Source: Opeltia flavorubescens (lineage: Eukaryota > Ascomycota > Lecanoromycetes > Teloschistales > Teloschistaceae). Taken from it: a DNA stretch of 64,000 nt. This document shows, in pieces, positions 5,774-64,000 of the stretch. How positions within the stretch are numbered: position 1 is the stretch's first letter; the number at the start of each line of letters is the position of its first letter. Both the position numbers and the translations under genes were made by a program. A model generated the notes under the pieces. That model ran no database searches, was not told where the DNA came from, and saw only the letters and a list, made by a program, of their open reading frames with translations. The stretch is from NCBI GenBank assembly GCA_000442125.1, contig KE546969.1:1887712-1951711 (forward strand), in the 5' to 3' direction.

Positions 5774-6649
5774 ATGCTTTACCCACAGATCTTAACTCTC
5801 TTAGCTTCGACTTTACTGTGCATCCAAGCTGCTTCCATTCGCCAAATAGACCGGCGCATAATACCAGGTGGACAGCTAGCCAATTTCTACCAAAGCGCCC
5901 ATAACTTCTGGTTCAAAGATGAATACGGCGGTCGCTATAGCGTGGAACTCGACGCCGAAACTCTCTGTGGCGACGAGATCATCAGCAATTACTTCTCAGC
6001 CAGCTCGGGTGACAGTAACGCCGATCGTTCGACAACCTTGGCACATATGCTCCAAGATTTTGATGCTGGCTCCAAATCATCTGCGTACGATTCGGCCCTG
6101 GATGCTTTAGAAGCAGCACAATCCTCGGCTTTTAATCAGTTGAGCGCTTGTAACGAGCTGTCGTATGATGGGACGACGACTATTCGGAACTCGGCTGCTG
6201 ATCGGCATAATTGGATTAAGGCTGCTAATAATGGCTCTATCACGGCCACGATGATCAAGGGCACTGGTACCGTTATCACGGCTGGACTTAGTCTTACGGC
6301 TACTTTTCTGTCCGACCAAGAGGCTAAGCTGGTAACCTCGGCCATTGCAGGAGGAGTGGCGACGGTATTGCTTTTTATCTTGAACGCTATAGTCGAATGG
6401 GTTAAGAATCAGGGTGCTTTGGATAAGAGTGATGCAGTGATACTTAAGACTTTTGCCGAATGGTCGAGGTCGACGCTTGTGACTACGGAGCAGGAGCTTA
6501 TGTGCTATTCAACCCACGACGCTCTTGAGAATGCCAATCAGATTGTTGGACAGGATAGTTCTTCTTTGGGGATGTTTGGGTTGGTTTCTGGGGACCAAGT
6601 AGCCGGGGCATTGAGGACAAGCCGAAGCTGTGGCACTTTGAATTATTAG
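5774..6649 (+). CDS. Secreted protein of unknown function, 291 aa
   Basis: The first 20 residues (MLYPQILTLLASTLLCIQAA) are a clear secretion signal. The mature part is rich in Ser, Ala, Asn and Asp and has few cysteines (the ones after the signal are near residues 64, 130, 244 and 286), enough for two disulphides. Two hydrophobic stretches occur at about 160-180 (IKGTGTVITAGLSLTATFL) and 190-211 (AIAGGVATVLLFILNAIVEW). They could be membrane-inserting helices or a buried hairpin. I do not recognise the family. It is a single exon with no introns. A secreted protein with internal hydrophobic helices could be a membrane-active or host-facing protein, but that is inference; a GPI-free cell-surface protein is equally possible. 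Confidence 0.7.
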   Translation: MLYPQILTLLASTLLCIQAASIRQIDRRIIPGGQLANFYQSAHNFWFKDEYGGRYSVELDAETLCGDEIISNYFSASSGDSNADRSTTLAHMLQDFDAGSKSSAYDSALDALEAAQSSAFNQLSACNELSYDGTTTIRNSAADRHNWIKAANNGSITATMIKGTGTVITAGLSLTATFLSDQEAKLVTSAIAGGVATVLLFILNAIVEWVKNQGALDKSDAVILKTFAEWSRSTLVTTEQELMCYSTHDALENANQIVGQDSSSLGMFGLVSGDQVAGALRTSRSCGTLNY

Positions 6650-13802: not shown

Positions 13803-15422
13803 TCAGTCAGGTGGTAAGAGCTCCAACCGCCACCAATCGCCGCTACTTTGGTAGATAGCAAGCCCATACTCACCCGGGATTTTTGTCTGGCGATTTACAT
13901 TCACGTGGTGTTTACGGTGACCTAGGTGCTCGGCCTTTAGTACAGGTAGGAATTTCAGTGTCGTATCCCTCGATGAGGTCAAGGTATGGCGCCAGCTGTT
14001 GATAGATTCCATCACTGAGGCGCCGTTGGCAAGAGATTGAAGCAGAATCTTATAATCCCCGTATTTCGTGACTGCGTGCTCCAGAATGAAGACCGGTGAA
14101 ACTCGATTGGTATCTTCGATAGTGATGACCGCGAAAGCGGGAACACAAGTAAAGTACATGTTTCTGCCTAATATAGGTTGCAGTTTGACGTAACCTGGCG
14201 GCGTGACATACCAAACGTGGATGCCATCTGGGATGGATATCTCGCTGAGGGACGACTGAGGTGATTTTTCATCAGTAAGAAGTGGCTGTATAGGCTCTTT
14301 GATATAAACCGTCCGACGATGCAGTTTATCCGAGCTCTGAAAACTTGGGGCAGGAACATGTTGACCTGGTAAGAGCCTTGTAACTATATTCGAATAGTCC
14401 TTTTTCTCCAAGATGATGACAAAAGGCTTGTCCGTATTGCCCCAGGCACAGTTCAGCGGGCAGAGGAGAGCTTTCTTCGATTGCAAAGAGCCCTCTTTGA
14501 TATTAACGTCGAATGTCTCTGTGATATTCGGTGACACTATTTTGTACACGGCTTTAAGTTGAAGCCCTCGATTGGTGACGGTGAAAGGTGTTCTGTTGTA
14601 CCTTGGATGAGACAACGGAGAGATGTCGCCACTCCAAGCGAAGCTTCTGGGCGACACTGCGAAGATACCAGACTCTAGTACAGGCTCATGCCACGCGAAT
14701 AGCGACTCATCTTCTATGCTCCGGACGATTTCATGCTGAAGCCTTTGGAATGCCTTCTGGCCTTCTCCATATAACAAAGGCATATTCACGTCGAACAATC
14801 CCATCAAGCAATAAGCCTCATCTTCCACGCGAGTGGTCTGCCGGTGCGCTGCCCAAGACATCCGTGTGGCAACGCTGGCGTACGGTAACCACTTGTGGTC
14901 AAGGAAATACGTCTCTTCAATACCAGTCGCCAGGGAAATGTCGTATTTTAGACTCGTCTTGTCACCCACATAAACCCATTTTCGGTCATAGAAGGCCACT
15001 ACGACTGGCGCTAGAAGCTCTTGTAAGGTCCNCCCCCGCCGAAACCACCGACTGCGTCGAAAGGAGGCTCCATCGATCTCAGTCCCATCCTCACCACGAT
15101 CAAAGTCGCCCAAGTAGGTATAGCAGCACCTTGCATTGCGGTAATATGCGTACATGGAGTTGATGGCTTCCGATAATTCAGCACTGCTGGATTTATCAAT
15201 ACAGCACGTGTCGATCCAGATGTACTGGCAATTGTCCAAGGAGGCTAGTTCACAAGCTTTTTGGATTTTCTGGAACCCTTTTAAGAGGGAACGATATTGG
15301 CTTGAAATATCGTGGAAAGAAACCTCTTCCTCGCCCCAAGTATGAGATAAGATGCCGTACTCTTGGCTCCTGTGGTCGATGACATGATGGAGTTGTAACT
15401 CGGTTGTATGAAGTAGATACAT
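13803..15422 (-). CDS. HET domain protein (heterokaryon incompatibility)
   Basis: A 539-residue, single-exon protein with all three HET blocks. They are YGILSHTWGEEEVSF (about 22-36), the central YIWIDTCCIDKSSSAELSEA block (about 68-90) with SMYAYYRNARCCYTYLGD, and SRWFRRG.TLQELLAP (about 123-138), followed by CLMGLFDVNMPLLYGEGQKA. HET proteins act in non-self recognition and trigger cell death when incompatible alleles meet; the HET fold is related to TIR and is thought to act on nucleotides. The C-terminal ~290 residues are a variable region without NACHT, ankyrin or WD repeats. One unresolved base (15032) falls in the first position of an NGG codon where the family has Trp; T on the coding strand would restore TGG. 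No neighbouring HET partner is visible. Confidence 0.9.
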   Translation of the reverse strand: MYLLHTTELQLHHVIDHRSQEYGILSHTWGEEEVSFHDISSQYRSLLKGFQKIQKACELASLDNCQYIWIDTCCIDKSSSAELSEAINSMYAYYRNARCCYTYLGDFDRGEDGTEIDGASFRRSRWFRRGXTLQELLAPVVVAFYDRKWVYVGDKTSLKYDISLATGIEETYFLDHKWLPYASVATRMSWAAHRQTTRVEDEAYCLMGLFDVNMPLLYGEGQKAFQRLQHEIVRSIEDESLFAWHEPVLESGIFAVSPRSFAWSGDISPLSHPRYNRTPFTVTNRGLQLKAVYKIVSPNITETFDVNIKEGSLQSKKALLCPLNCAWGNTDKPFVIILEKKDYSNIVTRLLPGQHVPAPSFQSSDKLHRRTVYIKEPIQPLLTDEKSPQSSLSEISIPDGIHVWYVTPPGYVKLQPILGRNMYFTCVPAFAVITIEDTNRVSPVFILEHAVTKYGDYKILLQSLANGASVMESINSWRHTLTSSRDTTLKFLPVLKAEHLGHRKHHVNVNRQTKIPGEYGLAIYQSSGDWWRLELLPPD

Positions 15423-16015
15423 GACTGGACAAGGTCAATGTCCAAGAAAGGCTTATTGCCCAACGTCTGTATCGCGCGAATCCTCGATAGATATGCTTCT
15501 GGAACCGAATAGCTCCTGAAACTGAAACTTGAGTGGTTGTCTCCTTATCACACTATGCGTCTATGAAGGACTGGCGACGAAAAGAGCGAGAGTTTGTGGT
15601 TCAAGTAAGGCAGGTCCAGAAGTGAGAAATCGAGCAAGGCTTCGAGCCTCACTTTGCCCAGCTGTTCCGATTGGCTGTGATTTCGTAAGACCTCTTTGAG
15701 CCACTAGCTCGCGATTGACCAATTAACCACTTGTATCATGCAAATGGTATTCCTATCCACGACAAGAAATATAAACAAGTTAATCAGTGGGACACAGCGA
15801 GTTGAAAGTATTGAGGACTGGTAATTTACGAATCTACTTAAAGCATACTAAGCCCAACCAGCTTCAGCCGCTAAGCCCCCTTGCCGGGCCACCATCTCAA
15901 TCGGGATATGGCTTTGCACTACTCCGCCCCCATCAAACAACCTCAGCCGTTCTTTTATCCTTTCTCCCTTTGGACTTGCACGTTACTTTGCGCGACTTAG
16001 GAATGATACAAAACC
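15423..16015. other. Divergent intergenic region
   Basis: Shared upstream region of the HET gene (minus) and the mucin-like pseudogene (plus). No supported gene. Confidence 0.45.
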
Positions 16016-20090: not shown

Positions 20091-21989
20091 CTAGAGTGTG
20101 TAGATGAGTTCTGGATTCTCCCTATCTGTGAGATCCAACCACTCGCTATACTCAAGCTTCTTGTATCCCGGTTCGGCACGTATCGCAGCCTTTCGCTGGT
20201 TTTCTCGTCGGTAATACCACCATATGAAAGCCAGGATCACGACACAGAAACTCCAGCAGACTATCCATTGGATTTATCAGCACCCTCCATCTCAATCACC
20301 ACTCAAATAACTGCAAGAGATTGAAAGTACCTAGAATTGTAATCTCCGCTCCCCTAAATCTTGGCGCCTCTCTGGCAATGAACGTCTGTGGTCCAATGAT
20401 ATTACCAGCACAGTAAGCGATTAGGAAGAGGGCAGCAAATGTTGTCTTCTTCGTGTATCCGGCAACATTACTGCTGATTAGGCTCAAGAGGCCAACCAAG
20501 CTCACTGTCGAGATGTTCGAGATATAGTAACCAGCCAGCCTGCCGCCTTTGTTCTCAAGTGGTAGGGCGATGATGAGGATCATACCAAGAATGGAGATCC
20601 ATAGTCCGACTGATGAGACTAATATTCTTTGCTTGAACTTGTCTCCCACGTAGCCGGATAGTAGGATGGCTATGGCACCAATGGCGCCGGCAGGTGTTCC
20701 ATAAAGGAGCGACTAAAATCTTGTGCTTCAGTCAATGCCACAACGATAGCAGAGGTGACATGGAGTAGGAGTAGTTCACCTGCGTGGGTGTAAAGCCAAA
20801 GCTAACGATGAGTTGAGAGAAGAAGTTCGAAACACCTCCTGCTCAGCAGATTAGTTTGATAGGAAAAAGCATCGTAAAATATCTTTGATACCGTTTGGAA
20901 TGTCCCAGAGAAGAGCAAAAAGGACGAAGGCCTTGTGCGATTGTCAGTAAAAATAGCAGTACGGAGGAGGTATATAGTCACCCAGGTTTGAGGATCCGAG
21001 AGTGCTTCCTGCTCATTGTTTAAGCGAGGAACCATCGTGAGATCTAAATTTCCACATACTCTGAATTGGTAGGGTTTGAAGTATTTGTTGCCAATACCTT
21101 GTCTTGTATCAGCGACGAATTCTGCATTCTCATTGGCCGCTGACTTACCTTGCTGATTTGACCTTGTCCTCTCGACAGCAAGTCTTCTTTCTCCAGCGTC
21201 GAGGAAGCGCGCCTTCAGCGGACTATCGGGCATGAATATGACGAAGAAAAAACCCATGGTGACCGTAGCCAAACCCCAAACAAGGAACAGAATCTTCCAG
21301 CTTGCAAGAGCCTCTGATTTGCCCACAGTTCCCTTAGCGACCGCATATGCAATGAGACCACCACATACGTTGGCGAACCCATTGAAGCTGAACCATATGC
21401 TTGTTCTAGTGCCCTGCTCTTTCTTTGTGTACCATTGTGAGGTGAATAGTACGAAGGCTGGGGTAACGGATGCTTCCAGCATGCCGAGAGCAAAGCGCAC
21501 GGTGGCAATGCTGGCGAAGTTGGTGCATGCTGCAGTACAGGCGAGGACTAGTCCCCACAGGACAATGTTGAGCCCCGTATACCTCGCCAGCGGGAGTCGT
21601 TGGAGAAGTCTGTTGGTAGGATATTCGAAACCCAAATACCCAAAGTAGAAGAGAGATCCCAACCATTGGTAATTGTTCTTCGTCAAATGGAGCTCCTCCT
21701 CAAGTCCCATGATACTTGCATAGGAAAGAGTTGTCTTGTCGAGATAGTTTAGCCCATAGACCACGCACATGAGGGGGAGTATGTGCAAATCAATCTTTCT
21801 CAATAGTTTCTTGTGAGTCTCTTCATCAATGGCTACTGATCCGGCAATATCCTGCGTTTGGAGAACTTGCAAAGCTTCGTCGGCTTCTTTGGAACCTTTC
21901 AACTCGGCTTTGCACGCTGGGCTTGGTTTGTCTTTAATTTCGAGTGTTGATTTGACCTCAGTACGGATGTTTCTTTTCTCCACATCCAT
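20091..21989 (-). CDS. MFS transporter, Dal5/allantoate permease (ACS) family, six exons, 535 aa
   Basis: Exons 21989-21060, 21008-20982, 20931-20892, 20838-20780, 20712-20331 and 20260-20091 all have GT..AG introns and sum to an exact open frame, so the gene is intact despite looking fragmented. Signature segments are LLRKIDLHILPLMCVVYGLN and YLDKTTLSYAS at the first membrane helix, then EYPTNRLLQRLP, and WKILFLVWGLATVTMGFFF at the end of the first six helices. After the loop with KYFKPYQFR come EALSDPQTW and AFVLFALLWDIPNG, and the second half contains LLSGYVGDKFKQR. This matches anion:cation symporters that import allantoate, nicotinate, pantothenate or small peptides across the plasma membrane. 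The neighbouring amidohydrolase suggests an amide-containing substrate. Confidence 0.9.
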
Positions 21990-22955
21990 GATGCTGTTAT
22001 AGCATACAAGTTTCTCGACTGTCCTTCACGAACGATCATAGAGGAGAAAACCATGGGGTGAGCAATTAACCTCGTACCCGCGAGCATGGCGATTCTGAAG
22101 CGAGGTTCAATTTCTTACATGTCCAATAACGTCATCTTCACTATCTCCGAGAGTCGTGTAACCACACCTAGCCGACGGCGAGGACACATCGACACCTTCA
22201 CTGACGCACATTGTTCCGTGAGACATGTACCATCAACGATATGCAGCGGATTCCCCAGTCCACCGGGTCAGGAGCGACACAACGACATCATTCATTCCAA
22301 TATAACACAGTTGCCTTCATGCAGACAGTAACCGACAAGGAAGGTACTTTTCAGAAATAAATTAAACAGATGTATGTCCCTGTCGCTGTTGCGATCGTGA
22401 CGTGAGAACCCAGTAAGGCTCAGCCAATCTCCTCACGGTCGTTATGCAAGGCACCAAATGCGGCTTGCAGTTGCGTCATATGCCAGTCTCCTGTTAAGCG
22501 ATAACGGAACGCCGGGATATGCTTCCGATCCTCTTCACATGCTGATAGCGTTTCATGCCAGATTAATTACTTTAAGCGGCAATGACCATGGAATAAGGGT
22601 TGCCAAACCTTACATCTCTGGAGATTGACTTGCCTTCGCCGCAACTTCATGAGGCTTGACGGTTTCTGGTCCTGGTTCTGTATCAATATGACTGCAGTCA
22701 TCCTGTACAGAATGTTTACAAGCTTGTCTCGAATCTGTAACCGACTATGTTGTACAGGGGTGCTTCATCACCGCCGTACCCTCCAAGCTGGAACCTTTTC
22801 GAAAAGACGGGCTCGTTACCCTCGTTAGGTCCTACTGATATAGGGACAATGTGTCTGCTTGACAATGTAATTCTCTCATCACCAAAGTCTTGTCTGACAG
22901 GATTTCTGTCTATCAACCCTTTCGTAGAGGGATCAAAGGAGCGATATTGGCTGAG
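21990..22955. other. Divergent intergenic region
   Basis: Upstream region of the MFS gene (minus) and the rhodopsin-like gene (plus). Frames at 22625-22995 do not join to either gene and are probably chance. Confidence 0.45.
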
Positions 22956-24271
22956 ATGGGTGGAAATTCGATTTCTGAGACAGGTTTGCAAGTGAGAAGC
23001 ATCATACTACCAATGATGGATGGTGATGACGTTCTAATTGATAACAGGTACTCACGTGGTGTCTAGCTAGTTTTGCCATCCTTCTCTCAGCTGGCCGTTA
23101 TATGTTACGATATCGAAAAGTTGGCAGACTGCATTGGGACGATGCTGCTCATGGTATTGCTTTAATCTTCATGATCGGCTTGTGTGGATTATACAGCAGT
23201 ACATTCTTCTACGCTAAAATCATTGATGATTATGCGCTTGGTTTGACGGGGCCGCCGCCAGAATCCCAATACATTGGTTTCCTCAAAGTCCAGCTTGCGG
23301 TCTCGGTCCTCTTCTGGATATGTGTCTACATGGTCAAATTGGCTTTCCTGGCTCTATACAGGATGCTATTTGTCGTGTCATGGGAGTCGAATGTGGTCTG
23401 GTGGGGAGTCATGGGATTCACTTTTTTGACATTCTGGGTCTGTCTCGCAGGAGAGCTCACAACCTGTGGTCCATCCAAGAACCTATTTCATCCGAGTAGG
23501 TACCCCCTGCAGGTGTAGTCGCAGGAAGGCAGCGGCAAACCGCTTCACAAATTTCATCTCGTCTCATTCACTAACACGGGTTATTAGAGCCATGTCAGTC
23601 TACACAAAGTGAACGCGGATTTCACAAAATCCTCGAGTATAGTTGTGCCGTCAACGTTATTTCTGATCTTGCGATCATGGCTTTTCCGATCTTCAAATTG
23701 CGCAAGCTGCAAGTTCGTGTCACTCAGAAGACCATACTTGCTATCATCTTCTCTCTCGCATTCCTCGTCATTGCCATTGACATCGCGCGTACCGTCATCA
23801 GCATTCGAGGTGGAGCTGTCGGTGCCAAATCCGCTGCCTGGGGCGTTGCAGAAGCCACTGTAAGTTGGGTTATCTCATATTTTCTTACATATCTGAACGG
23901 GCAATACATGCCCTGAGGGAGCCAGTACTCTGTAATACCTATTCGACTATTGGTATGCAAGGTTAATCGATTTTCAGGTAGCCGTAATCATATCCTGCCT
24001 ACCAACTTATCGTTCGCTCTGGTCTTTGAAATGTCCTACCAAGCCGGAATCAAGAACTTACAATGACGCTTCAAGTCAGAAGAACCTTGTCAATGTCCAA
24101 AGATCTTTCGAGTTAGCTGTTTCTCGCAAGTATTCCGAGGAGACTGTCAATGTACTGGGTGTTGGTCAATGGGACACTCAGCCAGTAGGGCCGAAGACTA
24201 AAATTCGAGGGGGGGTGTCTCAGTCTTTAGCAGAGCGAGAGTTTCCTGCAGCATATCATGCAAATGATTAG
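22956..24271 (+). CDS. PTH11/rhodopsin-like integral membrane protein, 349 aa
   Basis: Exons 22956-22991, 23048-23495, 23588-23859 and 23978-24271; all phases agree. The short first exon (MGGNSISETGLQ) gives the extracellular N-terminus and leads directly into VLTWCLASFAILLSAGRYML, the first helix. About seven hydrophobic segments follow, with HWDDAAHGIALIFMIG, KLAFLALYRMLFV, GFHKILEYSCAVNVISDLAI, KTILAIIFSLAFLVIAIDIA and AVIISCLPTYRSLWS, the pattern of the fungal rhodopsin-like domain found in PTH11-type receptors. No N-terminal CFEM domain is present. The C-terminal ~85 residues are a cytoplasmic tail. PTH11 in the rice-blast fungus senses surface cues, but most relatives have no known ligand. 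The gene ends 190 bp from the converging peptide-precursor gene. Confidence 0.85.
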
Positions 24272-24462: not shown

Positions 24463-24897
24463 CTACTCATCATATCGACCAATGAATGTACCAGACTCCA
24501 AACCCTCAGTACCTTCTGATGATCTTTTACGTTGGACGCCATCGCCTGTCAAAGTGTAACGCTTCATCAAACCATCATCAAGAACACTGTCCCTTTTGCG
24601 ATCATCATAACGGCCAATGTATGGCTTAGCATCTATGATAGCATCATCTTCCTCTGACCTCCTCCATGCCCCATCGCTTAATGGCTCAGGTCCCTCCGAA
24701 AGTGTGTCGAAATTTGCAGCTCGAGGCACAATATCTGCTGTAAGTTCTTTATCTGTGGAATCAGGAAGTGTTAGTATTGGGTCACAAATTGCAAAGAGCC
24801 AACGTATCAAGAGCGAAGACATACTTTTGAGCTGAAGAGGAGCCGCTAGGCAGACACCCAACAGGGAGGCACATATGAGAACTTTTCGAGGGTGCAT
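24463..24897 (-). CDS. Kex2-processed secreted peptide precursor (candidate dikaritin-type RiPP precursor), 120 aa
   Basis: Exons 24897-24825 and 24752-24463 are separated by a 72-nt intron with GTATGT donor, TACTAAC branch and CAG acceptor. The start was chosen at 24897 because it opens a perfect secretion signal (MHPRKVLICASLLGVCLAAP); the frame is open further upstream, but that part is leader. The mature region is cut by dibasic sites RR, RKR, KR and RKR into short acidic segments. Two of them end in nearly the same motif, PYIGRYDD and TFIGRYDE, the latter at the very C-terminus. Signal peptide, Kex2 sites and a repeated Tyr/Phe-containing core form the plan of UstA-type precursors, whose cores are cyclised by UstYa oxidases. 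A UstYa gene lies divergently 610 bp away. Alternatives are a secreted repeat peptide (KEP) without ring formation, or a pheromone-like peptide. Confidence 0.7.
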   Translation of the reverse strand: MHPRKVLICASLLGVCLAAPLQLKSMSSLLIRWLFAICDPILTLPDSTDKELTADIVPRAANFDTLSEGPEPLSDGAWRRSEEDDAIIDAKPYIGRYDDRKRDSVLDDGLMKRYTLTGDGVQRKRSSEGTEGLESGTFIGRYDE

Positions 24898-25507
24898 GTT
24901 CGAGGGATAAGAATTGTAAATGACTAGACTGTGTTCAATTTGGGTTGGTGGAGGTTGAATGAGCTTAGGTCTTTGATTCTCGAGATTGTTGCGACTGTGA
25001 TTAACAACGTGCGACAGTTCTGTCATATTATATGCCATTTTAAATTTCATGTTCGATAGGCTATGATATCATCTGCAGTCTGTCATCACCGTGGGACATC
25101 GTGCCACTTCGGGCGATTTCAGAAGTGTAGGTCTTGAGACGGGAGGGCAGATCATGCCGCTCGTGGCCCTCAACACACTCCTATTAAGGACTCAATGCAC
25201 CGGTTATCTTTCAGGGCAACCACGGTAAGTCTGACAGCATTTCCATAAGCAGGCAGGGATTAATGATGCACTCTCCATTCGTGGATCTATGCATATGCAA
25301 GTCAATCTAACAGACTGACCTGACTGTCGGGTCAATAAACATGAGACATCGGCGTAGTCAGGCAATTGTCCCCGGCAATCGACGCCATGCCACCTTTTAG
25401 ACCGTCGATTACTAAAATCTGATCAATAACAGAATGTTTATGTCTCGAACAATGCTTTCTACTCCCATGATAAGCTTTTTGTGCTATAATTTGCTCGACT
25501 GAAAAAT
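24898..25507. promoter_or_regulatory. Shared divergent promoter of precursor and UstYa genes
   Basis: A 610-bp interval lies between the two start codons with no gene of its own. Co-regulation is inferred from the head-to-head layout; I could not identify a convincing repeated binding site. Confidence 0.4.
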
Positions 25508-26533
25508 ATGTATGATCTGACCGACCAGCGTGACAGGTTGTTATACGACGAATCAAAACCAGCACCAGTCTCGCACAGAACGAAGACATCCAACCCGAGA
25601 GTAAACCTTCAAGTACTCTCGTGGACCGTCCAAGCCATCCTCTTTCTTACGTCTTTGTACATCCTCTACGGATCGAGACTTGGTCAACTATCCACGACGC
25701 AGCAATGCTTAAGGAAACACTCAGTATGGTGTGAGTGCCCAAAGCGACTCTAATACAAGGCAAAAAGCTCATACGTTCCCACAAAGCTCCCGCTCTTGAG
25801 GCGATCGGGGACGATTACGAAGTTCGCCAATTTAACGGGACATTCAACAATGGCTCGCCGTACAAAAGCCCTCCGAGTGATGCTGTAGATGCTGCATGGG
25901 ATAGTCTGATCATGGGTGGGTGTCAAGAAGATTCGGCTTGCCACAAAGCTGACCAAGATCATAGTCGGAATAATGGGTATCAGCGATGAGGTGATGGAGA
26001 AGATTGGTCATTCGAAAGACTCAGCACGGCTGCCACCAGAGAGCGGCGGAGGATACATGGCCAGCCTTGAAGTAAATCATCAGATACATTGTGTGGTTGG
26101 TTTATCTACTGCAGATTGCCATGACACAGCACTAACCATTTCCTCCACCTAGAATCTTCTCTGGCAAGCTACGCATGAAGAATACTACATCCGTAAAGGA
26201 GACCCAGCGTGGCAAGACAGCAGATCGACTCGGAGACAGCATTTAGGTACAGGATGAATCCCCTTGAGGACATCGTGAGCTACTAACGCATATACACCAG
26301 ATCATTGTGCTGATCTCCTACGCCAGAAGCTCATGTGTGACGCTGATGTAGGTATCTTCACCTACAACTGGGTCAAGGGTAGAAAGAGAGTTTATCCAAA
26401 CTTCAACACTATGCATAAATGCCGAGACTTTGATAAGGTTCTCTCTTGGGGGCGAAGACATCAAGCCAAGGCTCCGCAAGGAGGCGTTGTTACAAAGCCG
26501 CCAGATGCAGTCGAGCTTGATGTACCACCCTGA
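25508..26533 (+). CDS. UstYa family oxidase (DUF3328), five exons, 269 aa
   Basis: Exons 25508-25730, 25787-25915, 25965-26095, 26153-26246 and 26301-26533, with introns of 49-57 nt and CTAAT, CTGAC, CTAAC and TACTAAC branch sites; the frame is exact throughout. Residues 1-34 are cytosolic, about 35-55 form one transmembrane helix, then a lumenal domain. It begins CLRKHSVW and SPALEAIGDDYEVRQFNGTF and contains the two hallmark motifs HQIHC (156-160) and HLDHC (191-195) followed by ADLLRQKLMCDAD. In ustiloxin, asperipin and phomopsin pathways UstYa proteins are copper-type oxidases that close macrocycles on Kex2-released peptides in the secretory pathway. All key His and Cys residues are present, so it should be active. 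Its divergent neighbour is the candidate substrate. Confidence 0.92.
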
Positions 26534-43767: not shown

Positions 43768-45048
43768 ATGCGTTACACGCACTTTTTCATTCTAGCCCTC
43801 TCCGCGAGCAGCATTGCAACTCCTGTTCTTCAGACAGCAAATAGAGAAGCATCTCGACCACCGCTCGCTCGCAAAGACGTTGTCTTGCAAAACAGAGAAA
43901 CTGGCCTGACGACAATCGGAGAAACCGCTGTAGGAGCTTATGACCATGAGCTCCACAAGAGGTGGCTCGCTCTTTTTATCACCGCTGTCTCCGTCTTCAA
44001 TTCAATTCCAAGGGGCTGGCAACTATTCATGGGTCTCTACTCTCTTGGAAGTTCCGTATATTCTATCTACAATGATTGTCATGCGCCGGAGGGAAAGAAG
44101 GGTGTATTCGACTGTTTCAAGAGCTGCGCCGATCTAGTTTTGGCTGCATTCATTGGAGCTTACAAGATCAAGAGTGGGTACGTCAAATCCTCTCATCTAA
44201 ATGTCTGGATGGTGGTTACATATTGCGCAGCTGATATGAAGTCTCCATTGCAGAATCAGCCGCGACTCTCAGGGTTTTCATAGTCTTGCCGTCTACGAAC
44301 ATCCGCAATTTCCCTCCCTGGCCATGCACGCCCATATCTCCCCAACTAACGGTTCCCTCGCTCAAAGCTCAATTCGTAGCGAGAATAACGGCACATGGCA
44401 ACGGCACGCCACCGTCTACGCTGGCGATGTCGCAACTCACCACTTGCTCTACCGCCAAGCCCTCGAGTCGGACCTAAGTTTCGAGAACGATGGATCATAT
44501 CATCATTACCGCCTTCAACCGACAGAAGAAATGATGCATATCCTTAAATCAGATCTGAGCAAGAGCTTGTCGGAGCGAGAGGAGAACAATGTCCAAGGAC
44601 TCGTTACTGATTATATCTGGAAAAACAAGTACGTTTCGTGCATAACCATCCCTATACCTAATCACAGGCGTTTTCACAAGTCAAGCAACGAATTCGTACA
44701 AAGGCTTACATTTGTGTCTTATCTACAGTGACCAAACCGTCTGGCAAGAATTCCACGATTACTCCTACAACAGCGGCGACACTGTCGCAGGGTGGATGGA
44801 GGACCACAATTCTGAAGCCAGCTGCGCTGTCCCCATCAGATACAGTGTGGTCTCAGAAGGTTACTATGGGAAACTCTATGGTGACCAGGGCGTTATAGCT
44901 TATGGTATGTTTTCTCCTCATATGCATGCTTCTGCCTCGTGGCCTTCAGACGCTGAATATATGTACAGGGTGGAACAACAAGCCCTATGGCTTCAACGGG
45001 CGTGCTGGAACGTGGATTAACGAATGCGGAGGGACAAATGCTTATTGA
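43768..45048 (+). CDS. Secreted protein of unknown function, four exons, 346 aa
   Basis: Exons 43768-44177, 44254-44628, 44729-44904 and 44969-45048; introns 76, 100 and 64 nt, frame exact. The signal peptide is MRYTHFFILALSASSIATPV. A hydrophobic, Cys-containing region (about 80-135: WLALFITAVSVFNSIPRG, FMGLYSLGSSVYSIYNDC, VFDCFKSCADLVLAAFIGAY) is followed by a soluble domain with many Asn, Gly and Tyr. It ends YGFNGRAGTWINECGGTNAY. Cysteines at the centre and the terminal WINECGG suggest disulphides in a compact C-terminal module. I do not recognise the family. The architecture (signal, hydrophobic hairpin, small Cys/Gly-rich end) is seen in secreted toxin-like and host-interaction proteins, but no function is assigned. 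Confidence 0.65.
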
Positions 45049-55983: not shown

Positions 55984-56334
55984 TGTAGACTAGTAAAAGG
56001 TCAGTTCGTGAGTTTCAACAGGTGGATTGAAGAGGGAAAGAGCTTGAACTGAATGCGCGTGGTTGAAAGCTACAAATTCGCGCCAACTCTTAGTCGACTG
56101 GTTTGGCGCGAAAAGAAAACGCGACAAGATATCGAGGTATCGACTACAGTTGAGTCGATTGTTAAAAATCTCAATGGCTTTTCCTACTTTTGAGACAACG
56201 CGATTGTCCACTCGCAACTGGCTTAGAGGGGGCTATAGCCGGGATAAGGCTGTGACTTCGGAAGTACGGCTTGAAGTGCAGCTTAAGATGCGGCTTGGTA
56301 AGTTGAAAGAAAATTCAATCTACCAGCCTATCCT
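55984..56334 (-). promoter_or_regulatory. Spo11-like promoter with mirror-image E2F/MBF-like sites
   Basis: TTCGCGCCAA (56077-56086) and its exact reverse complement TTGGCGCGAA (56103-56112) lie 94-129 bp before the start codon. These fit the E2F/MBF (MCB-type) consensus that drives G1/S and premeiotic transcription in fungi. A further GCGCG-containing site is at about 56053-56060. Confidence 0.55.
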
Positions 56335-56379
56335 ATATAAGCTTATAATTAAGGGCTGAATTATAAAATTTAGGTGAGC

Positions 56380-56446
56380 GCCCTATAGGGCTGCCGTACG
56401 GCCGGGGGGCTAAATAATAAAAAACCGGGGGGGCTAAATAATAAAA
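56380..56446. repeat. Palindromes and G-rich direct repeat at the edge of the AT-rich block
   Basis: GCCCTATAGGGC (56380-56391) and GCCGTACGGC (56393-56402) are perfect palindromes. They are followed by two direct copies of a CCGGGGGGCTAAATAATAAA word (56402-56422 and 56425-56446, differing by one G). This looks like the terminus of an inserted element. Confidence 0.55.
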
Positions 56447-56670
56447 CTTCTACTAATTAGATTCGGGTCTATAATAACTCTAATTAATAGCCTCAGCGAG
56501 CGTATTAAAACGTATTCTTTCGATTTCATCTATTAGGTCTGGTTGTAGTAGATATAAGCTAGAAAAATATCGCTAGCGAATATTAATAGGGGATGCTAAA
56601 CCGGCTTCTTACGCGCTAAAAGTTAGGTTTTACCTATATACCTAACCCTAATTCTTCTATAAAGAGCGTG

Positions 56671-56807
56671 GACCTTAATATTACTATCGGATTAAATTTA
56701 ATATAACTTAGTATCACTATAAATTCCACAGCGATTCTATAAAAACTTAGTAATCAACCTTTTTATTATATACTATTTATATTATATATCTTCTATACCT
56801 TAATATA
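56671..56807 (+). repeat. Direct repeat, copy A (LTR candidate)
   Basis: Aligns over about 135 bases with 58503-58636 in the same orientation. Shared words include TATTACTA.CGGATTA, CAGCGATTCTAT or TAGCGATTCTAT, and TTATATACTATTTATA. Most differences are transitions, as RIP would leave. Confidence 0.6.
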
Positions 56808-57496
56808 TAGTAGCAGTTGTATAGTTTATAATCGTACCTATATTATTATATAAAAGTACTATTCTACTATATATTAGTAAATCGTAAAATATTTTTAACA
56901 GTCCTCCTATACTGGTAAAAACCTACTAGCTTCCGCCCGCTAAAATCAAATAAATATCTCCCGCGCACTATACTACCTACCTACTCTATCTATTTATCTA
57001 ATATTACTAATAATTCGATCGGTCCTTACCTAAATTAAGCAAAGCGTATTCAACTATATAGATATAAATAGTATCACCTCCGGCCCGATAAACCTATAAT
57101 TTAAACGATACACCTAATTTAAATCAGTAGAAAAAAGAGTTTAAAGAGCCTAAAGATTCCTATAAACAAATATTTAATAATATACCTGTAGAATTTTACT
57201 ATATATATAACCTATTAGTTAATTTTGATAATACTAAGAATAAATAATATAGAATACAGCCATCTACCTATTATAAATACCTATCTTCTTTAGTATTTAG
57301 TAATTTAGATAAGCTATAAAATTATATACTAGATATATATAGCTATAATCCTCGGAACTACTAATTCTTCTATATTCGCCGCTAATCCGTATAGGAATAA
57401 TACGCTAAAGATTATATATATATATTTCGGCGCCCTAAATTAGGCTATATAATAGTGTAGGTATACCTATTTAATATTAAGCTCTAGGCGTATATT

Positions 57497-57735
57497 AATA
57501 CTAGCAGCGGGGCATTAATTCTCGACAGGAATCTCCTACCTTCTAGCTTAGTTAGCTATAGCGTAATATAGAAAACAAAGCTAGTAATATTATAAGGCGT
57601 GTATAGCCTATAAATTATAAATAAAATCGCGAAATTCAATATCCGGCTAGGTAGATCTAATAGTTAAAATATACTTATAGAAGCCTACCTAGTCGATAAC
57701 TTCCAGGCTGGTTTTACCTTTTACAGCTTATAATA
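57497..57735 (+). pseudogene. Retroelement protease-like remnant between the direct repeats
   Basis: In one frame with a few stops the reading is SSGALILDRNLLPSSLVSYS, then KTKLVIL.GVYS, KFNIRLGRSNS, and EAYLVDNFQAGFTFYS. This resembles the aspartic-protease segment of fungal Gypsy-type polyproteins (D/SGA..LID...LP ... LVDNLKA..LIG, from memory). Reverse transcriptase or integrase motifs are not recognisable, so this is a truncated, RIP-mutated copy; the direct repeats on either side would be its LTRs. Confidence 0.4.
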
Positions 57736-58502
57736 TTTAATACCGCCATTTATCTAGCTACAAAATATATAATTATAAAAAAAAAAAAGATAATTTTTAG
57801 CTCTAAATCTGCTAGTAATAAAATAACACTCCCTATTATACACACCAGTATCTTTATACCTACCTCTTATAATTTATACTAAGCGCCAAAAGAAATAACA
57901 AGTACTAACAAATTCGATAGCGTTAAAGAAGTTCTACAAACCTAAAATAGCGCTAATAAATATTCAATTTTATTCCAATCAATTAGAACTAAATATTTAA
58001 AAGCGCTTAAATACAATATAACTAAATATATTTTTAAATAATATTTATTTAAATATACGAATAGCTCTACTAGTAACTCCGCTACCCCCTATTTAACCAC
58101 TATATATACCCCTAACTCGCCGCTATACCCTTCTATATATTCTCCACGGCTTTATACTATATATATAAGCGCTATACTATTATAGCCCCTTTAGATTATA
58201 TACTATATCGCTCCTAATATACACGCCTACCTTAATAATAATACGATAGGCTGATTAGTTAAAATAGAATAGAGAATAGGGCTGGAAAATATAATCGTAT
58301 AGTATACTAAGAATACCTTAATAAAAAACGAGGTATTATTATAGTATAAAAAGAAGGACACGGCTTATATATAATATATATATAATAAGCGTCAGCCACC
58401 CCTATAATATCTCGCCGGCGCTACTAGCAGCGAGGGCGTTATATATTTTATTTCTGGTAGGTATCTATTATAATTTTTCTAAGGTTTAATATAGTAAATA
58501 TA

Positions 58503-58636
58503 GACCTCGATATTACTACCGGATTAGGTCTAGCGTACCTTAGTATTCCTATAGATTCTATAGCGATTCTATCGAGATTTAATAATTAACTTTCTTACTA
58601 TATACTATTTATACTATATATATTCTACACCTTGAT
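58503..58636 (+). repeat. Direct repeat, copy B (LTR candidate)
   Basis: Partner of 56671-56807, about 1.8 kb downstream and in the same orientation. Confidence 0.6.
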
Positions 58637-58899
58637 ACCTTCTAGTATAGATAATATTTCGATCTTTTTTTTTATACCTTTATATATTCCATCTTTTAGG
58701 ATAGTCTCGCTATATTTATAATATAGATCCTATCTTTACTTATATTTCTATTCTATTAGAATAAACTAGTTTTTTACTATATCGCTTTAATAGCGAGTTA
58801 TATTTTATAAAATATATAAATATACTATTTAGCCTAGCAATATAATAGGGTACCTAAAAGGGTATTATTATAAAGTTTCTAGTAAGAAAGCTTTAAAAA

Positions 58900-61800
58900 T
58901 TAAACGCGAGGTAAAAATAATATCGGTTATTTAAGATCCTATAAATTTTAAAATAATTCGGGAGCTGGATAAGCCTATTCTAAAGCTAAAGGTATACTAT
59001 AATATATAGACCTATACGGCCGAACCTATCTACTATTTTATATTACTAGCAGTAGGTACCTTAAAAAACTATTACGCCTAAGAATATCCTAAATTATAAA
59101 CACGTTCTAAGTATAAGGTATAAAAGTTCTATTATAACCTTTAAACTCGGGTTAACTACTAGTAGATATTCCTATTATTACGAAGTAGTAATTTCTTCCG
59201 TATTAACCTATTAGCGTCGGCTATTAATAAAACCGACGACTCTATATCTACTAATATTATAGTAGCGGCTAGGTAGCGGGTTCGAGATATATAATAAATA
59301 TTAGAGCGGAGAATAAAAATAAGAATCAAAAACTGTTAAAAAGGTACCGAGTTTATACTATAATTAAAAATAATAGGGTGGCCTAAATACCTTTAAAGAT
59401 TAGACCGGTAAAAATTAATAGATCTAGTTAAAACCTTAAATATAAAGGAGGAACCGCTAGTAAATATTGTATAGAATACTATAAATAAAATACTTTTATA
59501 TTATTAGCAGATAGTTAAAGAGTAAACCGGGTATTTTTTATATATCGAAGTTATATATAGTAAAGCTAAGTAAATTAAATATCGTCCCCTATAGCTATAT
59601 ATAGACCCTAAAGTATTAAAGGACTATACCCGGCTATAGAAGTAGATCCTCGCGTTTTTTATCTATACTCGGGCTCGAAAAAATAAAGGGCCCGTTTATA
59701 AATTCCGAGAATAGGAAAAGATAAAATTTAAAACTATTATTTAAAAAGCCCGGCGGATTTATAATCGATATATTTAGCGCGAAGGTAGAAATTAATTAAA
59801 TAGTAGTAGTAGCAGCAGCAGTAACCCCGCCGGCAATATTAGTAATAACAACGCTATATCGGACCAGACTAAATCGATCCGATTATAAAAGTTGCAGGCT
59901 ACCTATTTACAGTTTTATCTAGTATTATTAGTACGAAAATACCGAGGCTATAAATATAAGTTGCCTATAATATACGCTATAGCGGTTCTAGCAGTTAAGC
60001 TTAAAGGATAATACAGGGTTAATTAATATCCTTCTATTATATCCCAGATTATTAAAATAGCGTGGTTTATAGTAATCCAAATAGTATATTAATATATAGA
60101 CGAAGATTATAAATATATTAAAAAGGAAGAATCTAATCTATTAAATCTAATAATTAAACTAATAGATAGGGTTATAATTTAAAAGAGCTAAGAAGCGATA
60201 TAATAAATCTTTAATCGCTATAGCTATAGTATAAAAATTACTAGGACTAGTACCGTACCTAATAATATCGATTAAATAAAAGATTAGATTCGATATAAAA
60301 AATTTAAGTTTAATATAGACTAGTTACGGAGTTTAATATATAGTTTAGTATTTAAAACCTATCGAGCGTTAAAAAAGGTTCTATATATATTCGAGAAAGA
60401 TTTCCCTAGTATTCTATAATATTAATTACGGGACGATCCTACCTAAGAAGGCATCGGGTATAATTTCGTCTAGAATAAACGAAACCTATAACCGATAGAT
60501 AATTAAACGTAGTTAATCGATCGTTTAATTATATTAAGTATTCTATAATAACGCGGTAATATTATTAATCTATATAAAAACCGAGAGTAGTACGAGTTAA
60601 TCGATTAATACTATAAATTACTAGCAATATTAGTATAATAGGTATAGGGATAGAACGCCTGTAGACCCGAGTTTTTAAATATATATAAGTAGAGTTCCGG
60701 AGAAGGTTAAAGTTATAATATATTTATTAGTAGGGGGTTCGGTAGTAATATCCCGTAAAGTAGTTAAATAGAGTTAGTTATATATTATTATAAAGGATAT
60801 AATATTAGTAGCGATATAAAGATTATTTATCGCTTTTTACCGTACAAGGTAGATACTTTAATAGTATAGAATATATAGTTAGTACGGCCGGTATAGAACG
60901 CTTTATAGAAGATCTATAATAAAGAATAATATTAATAACAATAAAAGTTATAGTATACCGATACCTATAAGTATAAATAGACGCCGGTATAGATAAGTTA
61001 AAAAATAAAAAAAGCTAATAAGGAGGCGTTAGAGAAAAATTTAACGTTATAATTATAGCAAGATATTAATATCGCCGTTAGCTAAAAATATCTATATAAA
61101 GGCGAAGGACGAATAAAGTATAATAAAAAAGATTAAAATAATAAGATTTAAGAAAATAAAATCGAGGATATATAAATAAAATACAGTATATATATCGCAG
61201 GCCTTATATATACGCGTGGTATCCGAGAGTAAGATAGAGTAGTAAAGAAAATACGGTAGAAATTCCGTAAAGCTAGTAAGAACTAGTATTATTTACTAGA
61301 ATTCCAGATTTTTAGGGAAGGTAGGGGGAAGCGCAAACTAATAAGATGGGAAGCGGATACTAAAAGCAGACGTTGTAAATAATATCGATGATTACGAACT
61401 ATTAATATAGATATAGAGTTGCGGAAAATAATATAAAATAAATAGACGGAGTTCTAAAAGTCCTAGAAGCGTATTATAGAATCCATTCTAGCCGGCTAGG
61501 AATATATATTAGCTATTATGCCCACCGGAGGGAGGAAGAATCTATTATTTATATTGCCGGCGTTTTATAATAAAGGAGGAATTAGCGTTATAAGTTAGGG
61601 TTCCGCTAGATTTTAATAGGTAGATTATTAATCGATTTATCCAGGTAGTAGTTCTATTAGTTGTATTACGGCAAGATTTATATCAATAATATTAGAAAAT
61701 AGGTATTAAATATAGGGAATAGAACCGACGGAGTTTACCGGATAATACTAGGATCGTATTAATTACGCTCGAGTCCGCCTATAACGACAATTTTATCCGG

Positions 61801-63290
61801 TTTATTAATCGTATTCAGGAATAGAAACGACTAGACCGGATTGTTATCGATAAATATTATATAGTATTAAATAATCAACTAGATTTCCGGCCCTAATTAT
61901 AGGAATTAGGAAAACTAAACCGGGCCCAAGTCCCTATTATAATATTAACCGCTACGTTGCCTCTATTAGAAGAAAGTCGATTTATAAAGCGGATATAAAT
62001 TCAGTCTAATAACGTTTAAATATTCCGAGCTATAATTATATAAAAGAATATCTAATATTAAATATACCGTATTCAAACCCGGATATCGCAGGAGTAAAAA
62101 GGCGAGTTACTATAGGTAATTTAAAGAATCCGAGGGACGCTAACCGGTAATAAAAAACTAGTAATTTATAGCGGTTTAATAAAAGATTACTAGTCGTTAA
62201 TAAAATCCATTAATTACAAAACGTATTTCTATAATACTAATAATAAAAAAGGAAAATTTCATCGGTTTTAATATAACCAGCAATTTAGTACTATTATTAC
62301 CACGAGTACTTTTAAAACCGGAATCGATATTCCCTATATTCGATAAATTATTTATATTAATAAGCCACGGATATTATTTAATTATAGCTAGGAGAGTAGT
62401 CGCGCGGGCCGGAATAAATAAATAAGTAAGGTAATAGTAATTCAAAGCCGTATAAAGGGGTAAAATTAAAAAAAGTCCCTTATAAATATAAAAGGTCAGC
62501 TGGTAGAGCGTTATTTAGATACCCTATATAAACGGGTAGTATTAGATATATATATAGATAATAAAAAAGATCGAGAAAGATATAAAGCGGGAGAAAAATT
62601 ATATAAAGAGTATAATTTAAAGGCAGTAACTGTAGATAATATTTCTACTAGCCGTTATCGATTTCCTACCCTTATAAACCTATTCCCGGGTAGATAGCTA
62701 TTACCGCAAGCCCCCTAAATTATTCTTATTATAGCCGGGAGTACGATTATAGAGCGATATAAATAGAAAGTCCGCGAATCGCAGGAAAAAATTCGGGCGC
62801 TATAGAATTTATTAAATATACTTCGGGGATAATATATATATTATTTACTTATAAAAAAAGTAGATAACTTAAGATATTATATATTTTATTATACGGAAAC
62901 GGAATACCAAGCAATTAAAGCGGATTACAGCCGGTAGAAAAAACAGCTATAAGGATAAAAAAAATTAACGCGGTTCGGAGGCTATTATTAATATTTTCTA
63001 CTATAAGTATAATACAATCGATAGCGAGAGTTAATAAAAGTAGGTAAAGCGGGTATATATAAAATAATCCCAGAGGAAAAGAATTGCTAATACTAAAATA
63101 TAGCGGTGGAAAGTTTAAAGGTATTAATTTACCTTAAAAATAAATTTCGGGAGTAGATATAAAAGCGAATACCGGCAGGAATAGTATAAAAAGATATTAA
63201 TCGATATTAGGGCGAATAAGTATAATAAACCGGTATAGATATATATTAAATAATAGTAGAAATTTAAAAAGATCTATAATTAAAGGAAAA
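58900..63290 (+). pseudogene. RIP-degraded telomere-linked RecQ-type helicase, pointing to the telomere
   Basis: Helicase motifs survive in order. Motif I is MPTGGRKNLLFILPAF (61518-61565, normally GGGKS). Motif Ia-like VVVLLVVLRQDL starts at 61645, DE-box-like IVIDKYYIVLNNQLDFRP spans 61840-61893, and motif III TATLPLLEES is at about 61948-61977. Motif V is TSTFKTGIDIP (about 62302-62334), and motif VI is (stop)ESSRAGR at 62389-62412, where CAG became TAG and GGT became AGT. From the LRQDL segment to motif VI one frame holds, broken only by stops. The change of frame after motif I fits a 58-nt intron (61587-61644). Upstream, NISSDIKIIYRFLPYKV (about 60800-60856) matches the N-terminal domain of such helicases. 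Limits are approximate and no product is expected. Confidence 0.75.
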
Positions 63291-63923
63291 TAAATAAATA
63301 AAAAAAATTTTAAAAGTTTAATAAATTGAATAATCGATAATATAATAACTTAATCGATTCAAAACTGGATTTAATAATAAAAATAGATAAAACCGGAAGG
63401 TTAAATAATTATTCGACTATTATTATAAAACGAATCGGATAAAAAAAAATATAATTATAATAATCGGAAATAATATAATTAAACTTAAAGTTGGGTAGTA
63501 GTATTAAAAAACCAATTCGAACCTTTTTTTTTTCTGCGGTCGCGGGATCCTCGGCCTATCTATTAAACTTACCTAATATCGGAATAAAAAATATTTTTAA
63601 TTAAAAAAGTCTATAGAGCTATTATATATAGAACTTCTCGGAATTATACTTTTATTACTTGAAATTATTGATACTAATTATTACTGGTTTTTATTTTATC
63701 TTTTTTTATTATTAATTTCTAACGTTTAAATTATTAATAGTCCGTATAAAGTATTAATAATCGATCGATTAATTTTAGCCAGCTTTTAAAATTAAATTCG
63801 GACTTTTTATTAAATTTTTATATTTTTAAAGCCCTTTAAATCTCGGACTATTAATACAATTCGATTTTTAAAATTAAATATAAAATTTATTCTTTTTTTA
63901 TTTTATTTTTTTAATATTTTTTC

Positions 63924-64000
63924 TTAGGGTTAGGGTTAGGGTTAGGGTTAGGGTTAGGGTTAGGGTTAGGGTTAGGGTTAGGGTTAGGGTTAGGGTTAGG
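63924..64000 (+). repeat. Telomere repeats (TTAGGG)n
   Basis: About 12.8 uninterrupted TTAGGG units run to the last base, with the G-rich strand 5'->3' toward the end, so this is the right chromosome terminus. No degenerate units are seen. Confidence 0.98.

Follow-up and report, generated by a model that had tools for sequence, protein, structure and literature searches.

The 64-kb window (the whole stretch of DNA analysed, 64,000 nucleotides) harbored a divergent gene pair composed of (i) a two-exon gene for a 120-aa Kex2-type precursor with a signal-peptide-like start and two copies of the aromatic core [YF]IGRYD and (ii) an intact five-exon gene for a UstYa-family (PF11807) protein on the opposite strand, and comparable precursors adjoined UstYa genes at four other loci of the same genome. 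This pair is probably a minimal asperipin-like UstYa RiPP locus, from which [YF]IGRYD[DE] peptides would be freed by Kex2 and cross-linked oxidatively by UstYa. The features of the pair were as follows (window positions, with positions on contig C5 in brackets for the two cores):

24897-24463, minus strand: precursor gene, two exons and one intron, 120 aa, ATG at 24897
24825..24897, minus strand: precursor exon 1, 73 nt (24 codons plus 1 nt), predicted signal-peptide-like start
24753..24824, minus strand: precursor intron, 72 nt, GTATGT...TACTAAC...CAG, codon statistic negative in three frames
24463..24752, minus strand: precursor exon 2, stop included, containing all four dibasic sites and both [YF]IGRYD cores
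24604..24621 (C5:1912315-1912332), minus strand: core copy 1, YIGRYD, 18 nt, followed by D-RKR
24469..24486 (C5:1912180-1912197), minus strand: core copy 2, FIGRYD, 18 nt, followed by E and the stop
24898..25507, no strand: intergenic region common to both divergent genes, 610 bp from ATG to ATG
25508..25730, plus strand: UstYa exon 1, encoding the N-terminal tail and a membrane helix at about residues 36-54
25787..25915, plus strand: UstYa exon 2
25965..26095, plus strand: UstYa exon 3, carrying H156QIHC
26153..26246, plus strand: UstYa exon 4, ending where the second motif begins
26301..26533, plus strand: UstYa exon 5, completing H191LDHC and carrying Cys205, Cys233 and the stop

Structures of the precursor and UstYa genes

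The precursor gene retained the structure proposed in the first-pass annotation, namely a spliced gene for a secreted protein of 120 aa (full spliced product MHPRKVLICASLLGVCLAAPLQLKNKELTADIVPRAANFDTLSEGPEPLSDGAWRRSEEDDAIIDAKPYIGRYDDRKRDSVLDDGLMKRYTLTGDGVQRKRSSEGTEGLESGTFIGRYDE) with four dibasic sites; its signal peptide was called by a heuristic, based on a hydrophobic start with AAP. The 72-nt intron displayed a GTATGT donor, a TACTAAC branch motif and a CAG acceptor; it was in frame and stop-free, so that an unspliced 144-aa ORF was also open, and two further acceptors kept the frame with products shorter by five or six residues. The donor and the branch motif favour the splice given above. 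A codon statistic, for which 4169 codons of the same genome served as the training set, gave +0.060 for exon 1 and +0.083 for exon 2 in the proposed frame, each the best among six frames, and was negative in the intron (three frames) and in four intergenic stretches (all six frames); these values supported both precursor exons. The four dibasic sites (RR, RKR, KR and RKR; shuffle mean 1.36, P 0.015, 5000 shuffles) were on their own weak evidence for a precursor. A homology search across 5.8 billion proteins (E 1), and one of the rest of the genome, found nothing related to the precursor. The precursor had no Pfam match at E 0.001 and hence none to a pheromone-type domain, although not every pheromone need be recognised in this way; among the pheromone-annotated KEPs described in PMC7329392, all but three had no DUF3328 neighbour.

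The UstYa gene had likewise been described as intact, with five exons on the opposite strand 610 bp away, and this description was borne out: the protein of 269 aa carried both HQIHC and HLDHC and matched PF11807 with E 1e-58 over residues 40-246. Its exons gave codon statistics of +0.011 to +0.101 in the proposed frame, with another frame slightly higher for exon 4. All nine residues invariant across 51 homologues were present, those beyond both HxxHC motifs being Arg200, Cys205, Asp208 and Cys233, and Trp112, which is nearly invariant, was conserved too. For homologue P0001, 61% identical, an AlphaFold model (mean pLDDT 76.6) placed both HxxHC motifs near the starts of helices, 159-174 and 191-211; the same motif-per-helix layout is described for CctR, in which HxxHC(x)nHxxHC, with one HxxHC per helix, builds a two-copper centre and alanine changes abolish activity (PMC12435403).

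For the genome's RPB2, the best 120 proteins listed included one of 100% identity, those of Teloschistes flavicans and one further source at 94%, and that of Gallowayella weberi at 93%, so that the fungus is most likely a lichen former of the Teloschistaceae. The search for UstYa relatives, which reached only sharers of short exact words, yielded 70 proteins at E 0.001 from 578 candidates. The closest comprised a 61% match, a Mycoblastus sanguinarius protein with 58% identity across 73% of the length, and a protein with 69% identity across 55% of the length. The sole Teloschistes flavicans protein among those 70 (P0040) was 41% identical to the window UstYa and fitted the UstYa loci on C14, C5 (left end) and C17 better. 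A patchy distribution of the window locus is suggested, not proven, by sequence comparison of this kind. The UstYa genes at C14:12795, C5:26160 and C17:17271 all resembled P0040 and were located about 12-27 kb from contig ends; a subtelomeric expansion of P0040-like UstYa genes is possible.

Comparison with other UstYa loci of the genome

PF11807 had 19 matches genome-wide, grouped as 15 genes at 14 loci, and 10 kb were examined around each of the 13 loci other than that of the window (130 kb), together with the 64-kb window. A repeat scan, in which ORFs were scored on similar residues preceding dibasic sites, placed five precursors on top, each adjoining UstYa: those on C2 (50), C17 (48), C3 (45) and C22 (44) and that of the window (30). 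The next score, 27, was apparent noise, and the window precursor stood barely above it by repeats alone; an earlier version of the scan returned the identical top five, and no other ORF in the rest of the window had a comparable repeat score. A Kex2-type repeat precursor was thereby present within about 1.1 kb at 5 of the 14 UstYa loci, and no precursor-like gene was detected by these scans at the other 9.

A repeat-blind scan was also applied, calling for a signal-like start, 0 or 1 intron and at least four dibasic sites (its thresholds were chosen with the first loci already known). Across the window and the 130 kb, it returned four genes (window, C2, C3 and C22), each beside UstYa, and nothing else, overlooking the C17 precursor. 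When loosened to at least three dibasic sites, it gave five extra starts, none precursor-like: four in UstYa stretches (one each in L015 and L016, two in L021) and one at window 43768. Five 10-kb control stretches (50 kb of 34 Mb) had 0 matches in both the repeat scan and the strict repeat-blind scan. The pairing of precursor and UstYa put forward in the first-pass annotation thus gained support, with a precursor within about 1.1 kb of UstYa at 4 of the 13 other loci and none in the controls. In L021 (C20, start near 6226, +), a UstYa gene has a neighbour that may be the start of a cytochrome P450, and this UstYa perhaps serves a non-RiPP pathway.

The four other precursors were as follows: (i) the C2 precursor (L018) had eleven units, nine of them exactly PEPGVGF; (ii) the C3 precursor (L012), with motif GNFEADGMLAVARDAESSYAT, had six variants of GNFEADGMLAVARDAESSYATK; (iii) the C17 precursor (L011), with motif AEGAHHVxYY, had two AEGAHHVxYYKR units plus one related unit; and (iv) the C22 precursor (L020), with motif EPGxPW, had three EPG...W units plus one shorter unit. 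The C2 precursor adjoined two UstYa genes pointing away from each other. These four pairs shared with the window pair the dibasic-flanked repeats by UstYa and the predicted signal-like starts, but their repeats were close copies (3 to 11 units, unrelated in sequence from one precursor to another), whereas those of the window precursor were diverged. Three of the five pairs (window, C3 and C17) were head to head, with about 1.1 kb (C3) and 1.0 kb (C17) from the precursor ATG to the UstYa match; the C2 and C22 precursor genes instead faced UstYa tail to tail, with about 0.3 and 0.5 kb between them, respectively. The C3 precursor matched the window precursor in the length of exon 1 (73 nt) and in its donor (GTATGT), and its intron was 74 nt long, compared to 72 nt.

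An unlikely alternative, and the strongest of those weighed here, holds that the precursor is a true Kex2-processed secreted one whose peptides stay linear (signal- or effector-like) while UstYa modifies something else. It draws on the 6120 of 7878 KEPs without a DUF3328 neighbour (PMC7329392), on the work of UstYa (DUF3328) enzymes in other, non-RiPP pathways (PMC12048977) and on the 9 of 14 UstYa loci without a detected precursor, but it leaves unaccounted for a head-to-head arrangement at 610 bp that was repeated at two other loci, and a core that is aromatic and contains Tyr, like those of UstYa substrates.

Repeated core of the precursor

The aromatic-containing motif that had been claimed to be repeated was recovered as [YF]IGRYD, present twice and in register. 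The YIGRYD/FIGRYD pair was equalled in 0 of 1000 shuffles of the mature part of the precursor, and wider windows of 8, 10 and 13 residues were equalled in 1, 8 and 8 of 1000, respectively; for the in-register 19-mers RSEEDDAIIDAKPYIGRYD and RSSEGTEGLESGTFIGRYD, the count was again 0 of 1000. Both 19-residue units started at the final residue of a dibasic site, and they were identical at 7 of 19 positions in total, divided into 5 of 6 in the core (with two synonymous differences) and 2 of 13 in the remainder. The degenerate core DNA pattern TWYATHGGNMGNTAYGAY had 3 matches in the 34.4-Mb genome, two inside the precursor gene and the third on contig C19 (reading FIGSYD), and its reversed-pattern control had 0 matches genome-wide. 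Among the six pairings of precursor segments compared, the first segment was partly like the last (6 of 1000 shuffles) and, over 8 residues, like the third (19 of 1000), both counts being uncorrected for the six comparisons, and three other pairings gave 159, 532 and 564 per 1000; the middle segment was not significantly related to the core-bearing units (159 and 532 of 1000).

A former multi-repeat precursor, now a decaying remnant with most copies lost beside a still intact UstYa, would explain two good cores amid diverged segments where the other four precursors have near-identical repeats, the partial resemblance of the first segment to the last and third, and a location about 37 kb from the telomere; such decay is nevertheless very improbable, given an open frame, a clean intron, a positive codon statistic and a core preserved at the protein level with synonymous differences. 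That the precursor ORF is no gene, its dibasic sites and repeat having arisen by chance in noncoding DNA beside UstYa, can hardly be credited, the lack of a homologue (5.8 billion proteins, E 1) and a repeat score that alone barely exceeds noise (30 vs 27) being set against the shuffle tests, the genome-wide count of the core pattern, the codon statistic and a splice layout resembling that of the C3 precursor.

Chromosomal position and neighbouring genes

The window comprised the final 64 kb of contig C5 (1887712-1951711 of 1951711), and its right end was a TTAGGG telomere tract, which places the gene pair about 37 kb from the chromosome end. Window 56001-64000 had a G+C content of 0.27-0.32, an AT-rich subtelomere adjoining normal gene space.

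The neighbour survey covered 28 hand-picked ORFs scanned with Pfam, a procedure that small exons can escape, and 20 of the 28 had no match. The matched ORFs were assigned to an amidohydrolase, an MFS transporter (two ORFs, one below cut-off), a receptor-like protein (two ORFs) and a HET protein, and two more matches (Exo_endo_phos and DUF7730) were both below cut-off; no methyltransferase, peptidase or reductase was found among the 28. The nearest transporter gene was the MFS gene at 20299-22025 (-), 2.4 kb from the precursor with a receptor-like gene between them, and its cluster membership is putative. A fungal rhodopsin-domain (receptor-like) gene at 23045-24271 (+) had its 3' end towards the precursor gene. 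The HET-domain ORF (heterokaryon incompatibility) was located at window 13806-15434 (-), and window 43768-44283 (+) contained an ORF without Pfam match for a small secreted-looking protein (171-aa reading).

Comparison with known systems and prior surveys

The designation as a candidate new dikaritin-type locus stood in its anatomy of UstYa and precursor, but the words new and dikaritin-type should be used with caution, as the classical multi-gene features were not found. Under the broad dikaritin definition (PMC12048977), the locus had both the enzyme (a UstYa-family protein with the two HxxHC motifs that mark the family) and the precursor (Kex2 sites, a heuristic signal peptide and a position near the enzyme gene). 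The five-gene definition (Ding et al., quoted in PMC12048977) names tyrosinase, multiple DUF3328, methyltransferase, and transporter or peptidase; here, the 3 tyrosinase matches of the genome were on C6 and C3 with none on contig C5, and the window had one PF11807 locus. KEP/DUF3328 pairs had already been counted, with DUF3328 (UstYa) genes accompanying those of 1758 KEPs out of 7878 (PMC7329392), and UstYa/KEP pairs as a kind are known and common.

With no tyrosinase on the contig and with the Pfam results of the neighbours, asperipin-2a was the closest layout. Its cluster is composed of aprA, aprY, aprT and aprR (precursor, one UstYa homologue, transporter and reductase), and it shared with the window locus the small size, the single UstYa-family enzyme, the absence of tyrosinase and a ribosomal precursor with an aromatic core (PMC6514808), but that core was FYYTGY instead of [YF]IGRYD[DE], and a reductase was not seen among the ORFs scanned here. 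The ustiloxin and phomopsin systems resembled the window locus in having a Kex2-type precursor near a UstYa-family oxidase, with Tyr and Ile in the core, but they displayed higher copy numbers: two (ustiloxin) and five (phomopsin) UstYa proteins vs one here (PMC7329392), and 16 peptides in UstA of ustiloxin vs two clear cores here (PMC6514808). The window locus further differed from both in having no tyrosinase on the contig and no methyltransferase or peptidase among the 28 ORFs. The gigA precursor has four repeats and a core different from that of the window precursor. The epichloecyclins (gigA) were alike in the symbiotic fungus, signal sequence and Kex2 sites, with a ring via oxidised Tyr (PMC6514808), but the producer is a grass endophyte, whereas the fungus here is a lichen former.

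The KEP criterion calls for three or more tandem repeats, each no shorter than 8 aa and set between Kex2 sites (PMC7329392), and an earlier KEP survey likewise requires at least three repeats (PMC6339444); the window precursor, with two clear 19-aa units, would therefore have gone uncounted in both. A 2025 survey of 111 lichen-fungus genomes describes many UstY-type clusters and, for the two clans studied, no precursor with conserved repeats, and by its account the Lecanoromycetes have no characterised RiPP (PMC12048977). No description of the window locus was recognised in the open-licence literature, supplementary tables being outside this scope. The locus is well supported as a gene pair and unproven as to its product.

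Proposed pathway and its significance

We infer that the two genes are expressed, that precursor and UstYa are functionally linked and that a product is made; Kex2 cutting, copper chemistry, cross-linking and secretion are proposed by analogy with known systems. One intergenic region is common to the two divergent genes. The signal peptide would take the precursor into the secretory route, where Kex2 would cleave after the four dibasic sites and carboxypeptidases would remove the basic ends. The resulting peptides would end in YIGRYDD and FIGRYDE, plus two others that are less conserved. UstYa-family enzymes are membrane-associated and copper-dependent, and the CctR domain is proposed to face the lumen of an organelle and requires dioxygen and electrons (PMC12435403); the window UstYa would similarly be membrane-anchored and lumen-facing, with a two-copper centre on its two HxxHC motifs, and would use dioxygen. 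It would cross-link side chains within the aromatic core, the likeliest bond running between the phenol oxygen of the Tyr that both cores share and a beta carbon close by, as in asperipin-2a, whose Tyr-O to Phe-C-beta ether is made by a two-copper DUF3328 enzyme (PMC12186524). The cyclic peptide would then be secreted. The computed [M+H]+ values (linear / minus 2H) were 901.405 / 899.389 for YIGRYDD, 899.426 / 897.410 for FIGRYDE, and 2184.993 / 2182.978 and 2033.893 / 2031.878 for the longer Kex2 fragments SEEDDAIIDAKPYIGRYDD and SSEGTEGLESGTFIGRYDE, respectively.

A further reading, rather doubtful as it stands, is that of a low-copy mixed-core precursor, invisible to repeat-based KEP surveys and belonging to one of at least five pairs with unrelated cores in a single lichen fungus. 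Its two [YF]IGRYD[DE] cores, and perhaps another two or three different peptides, would all be substrates of one UstYa. Were every segment accepted by UstYa, a single locus would yield several differing cyclic peptides as a small family. With five UstYa/precursor pairs in one genome, lichen RiPPs become testable from the precursor side, by way of named cores and masses, and the combination of a UstYa neighbour, a signal-peptide start and dibasic sites may, as the window locus suggests, reveal precursors dropped by the three-repeat rule. If the mixed-core reading is true, lichens would have uncounted cyclic peptides, possibly for symbiosis.
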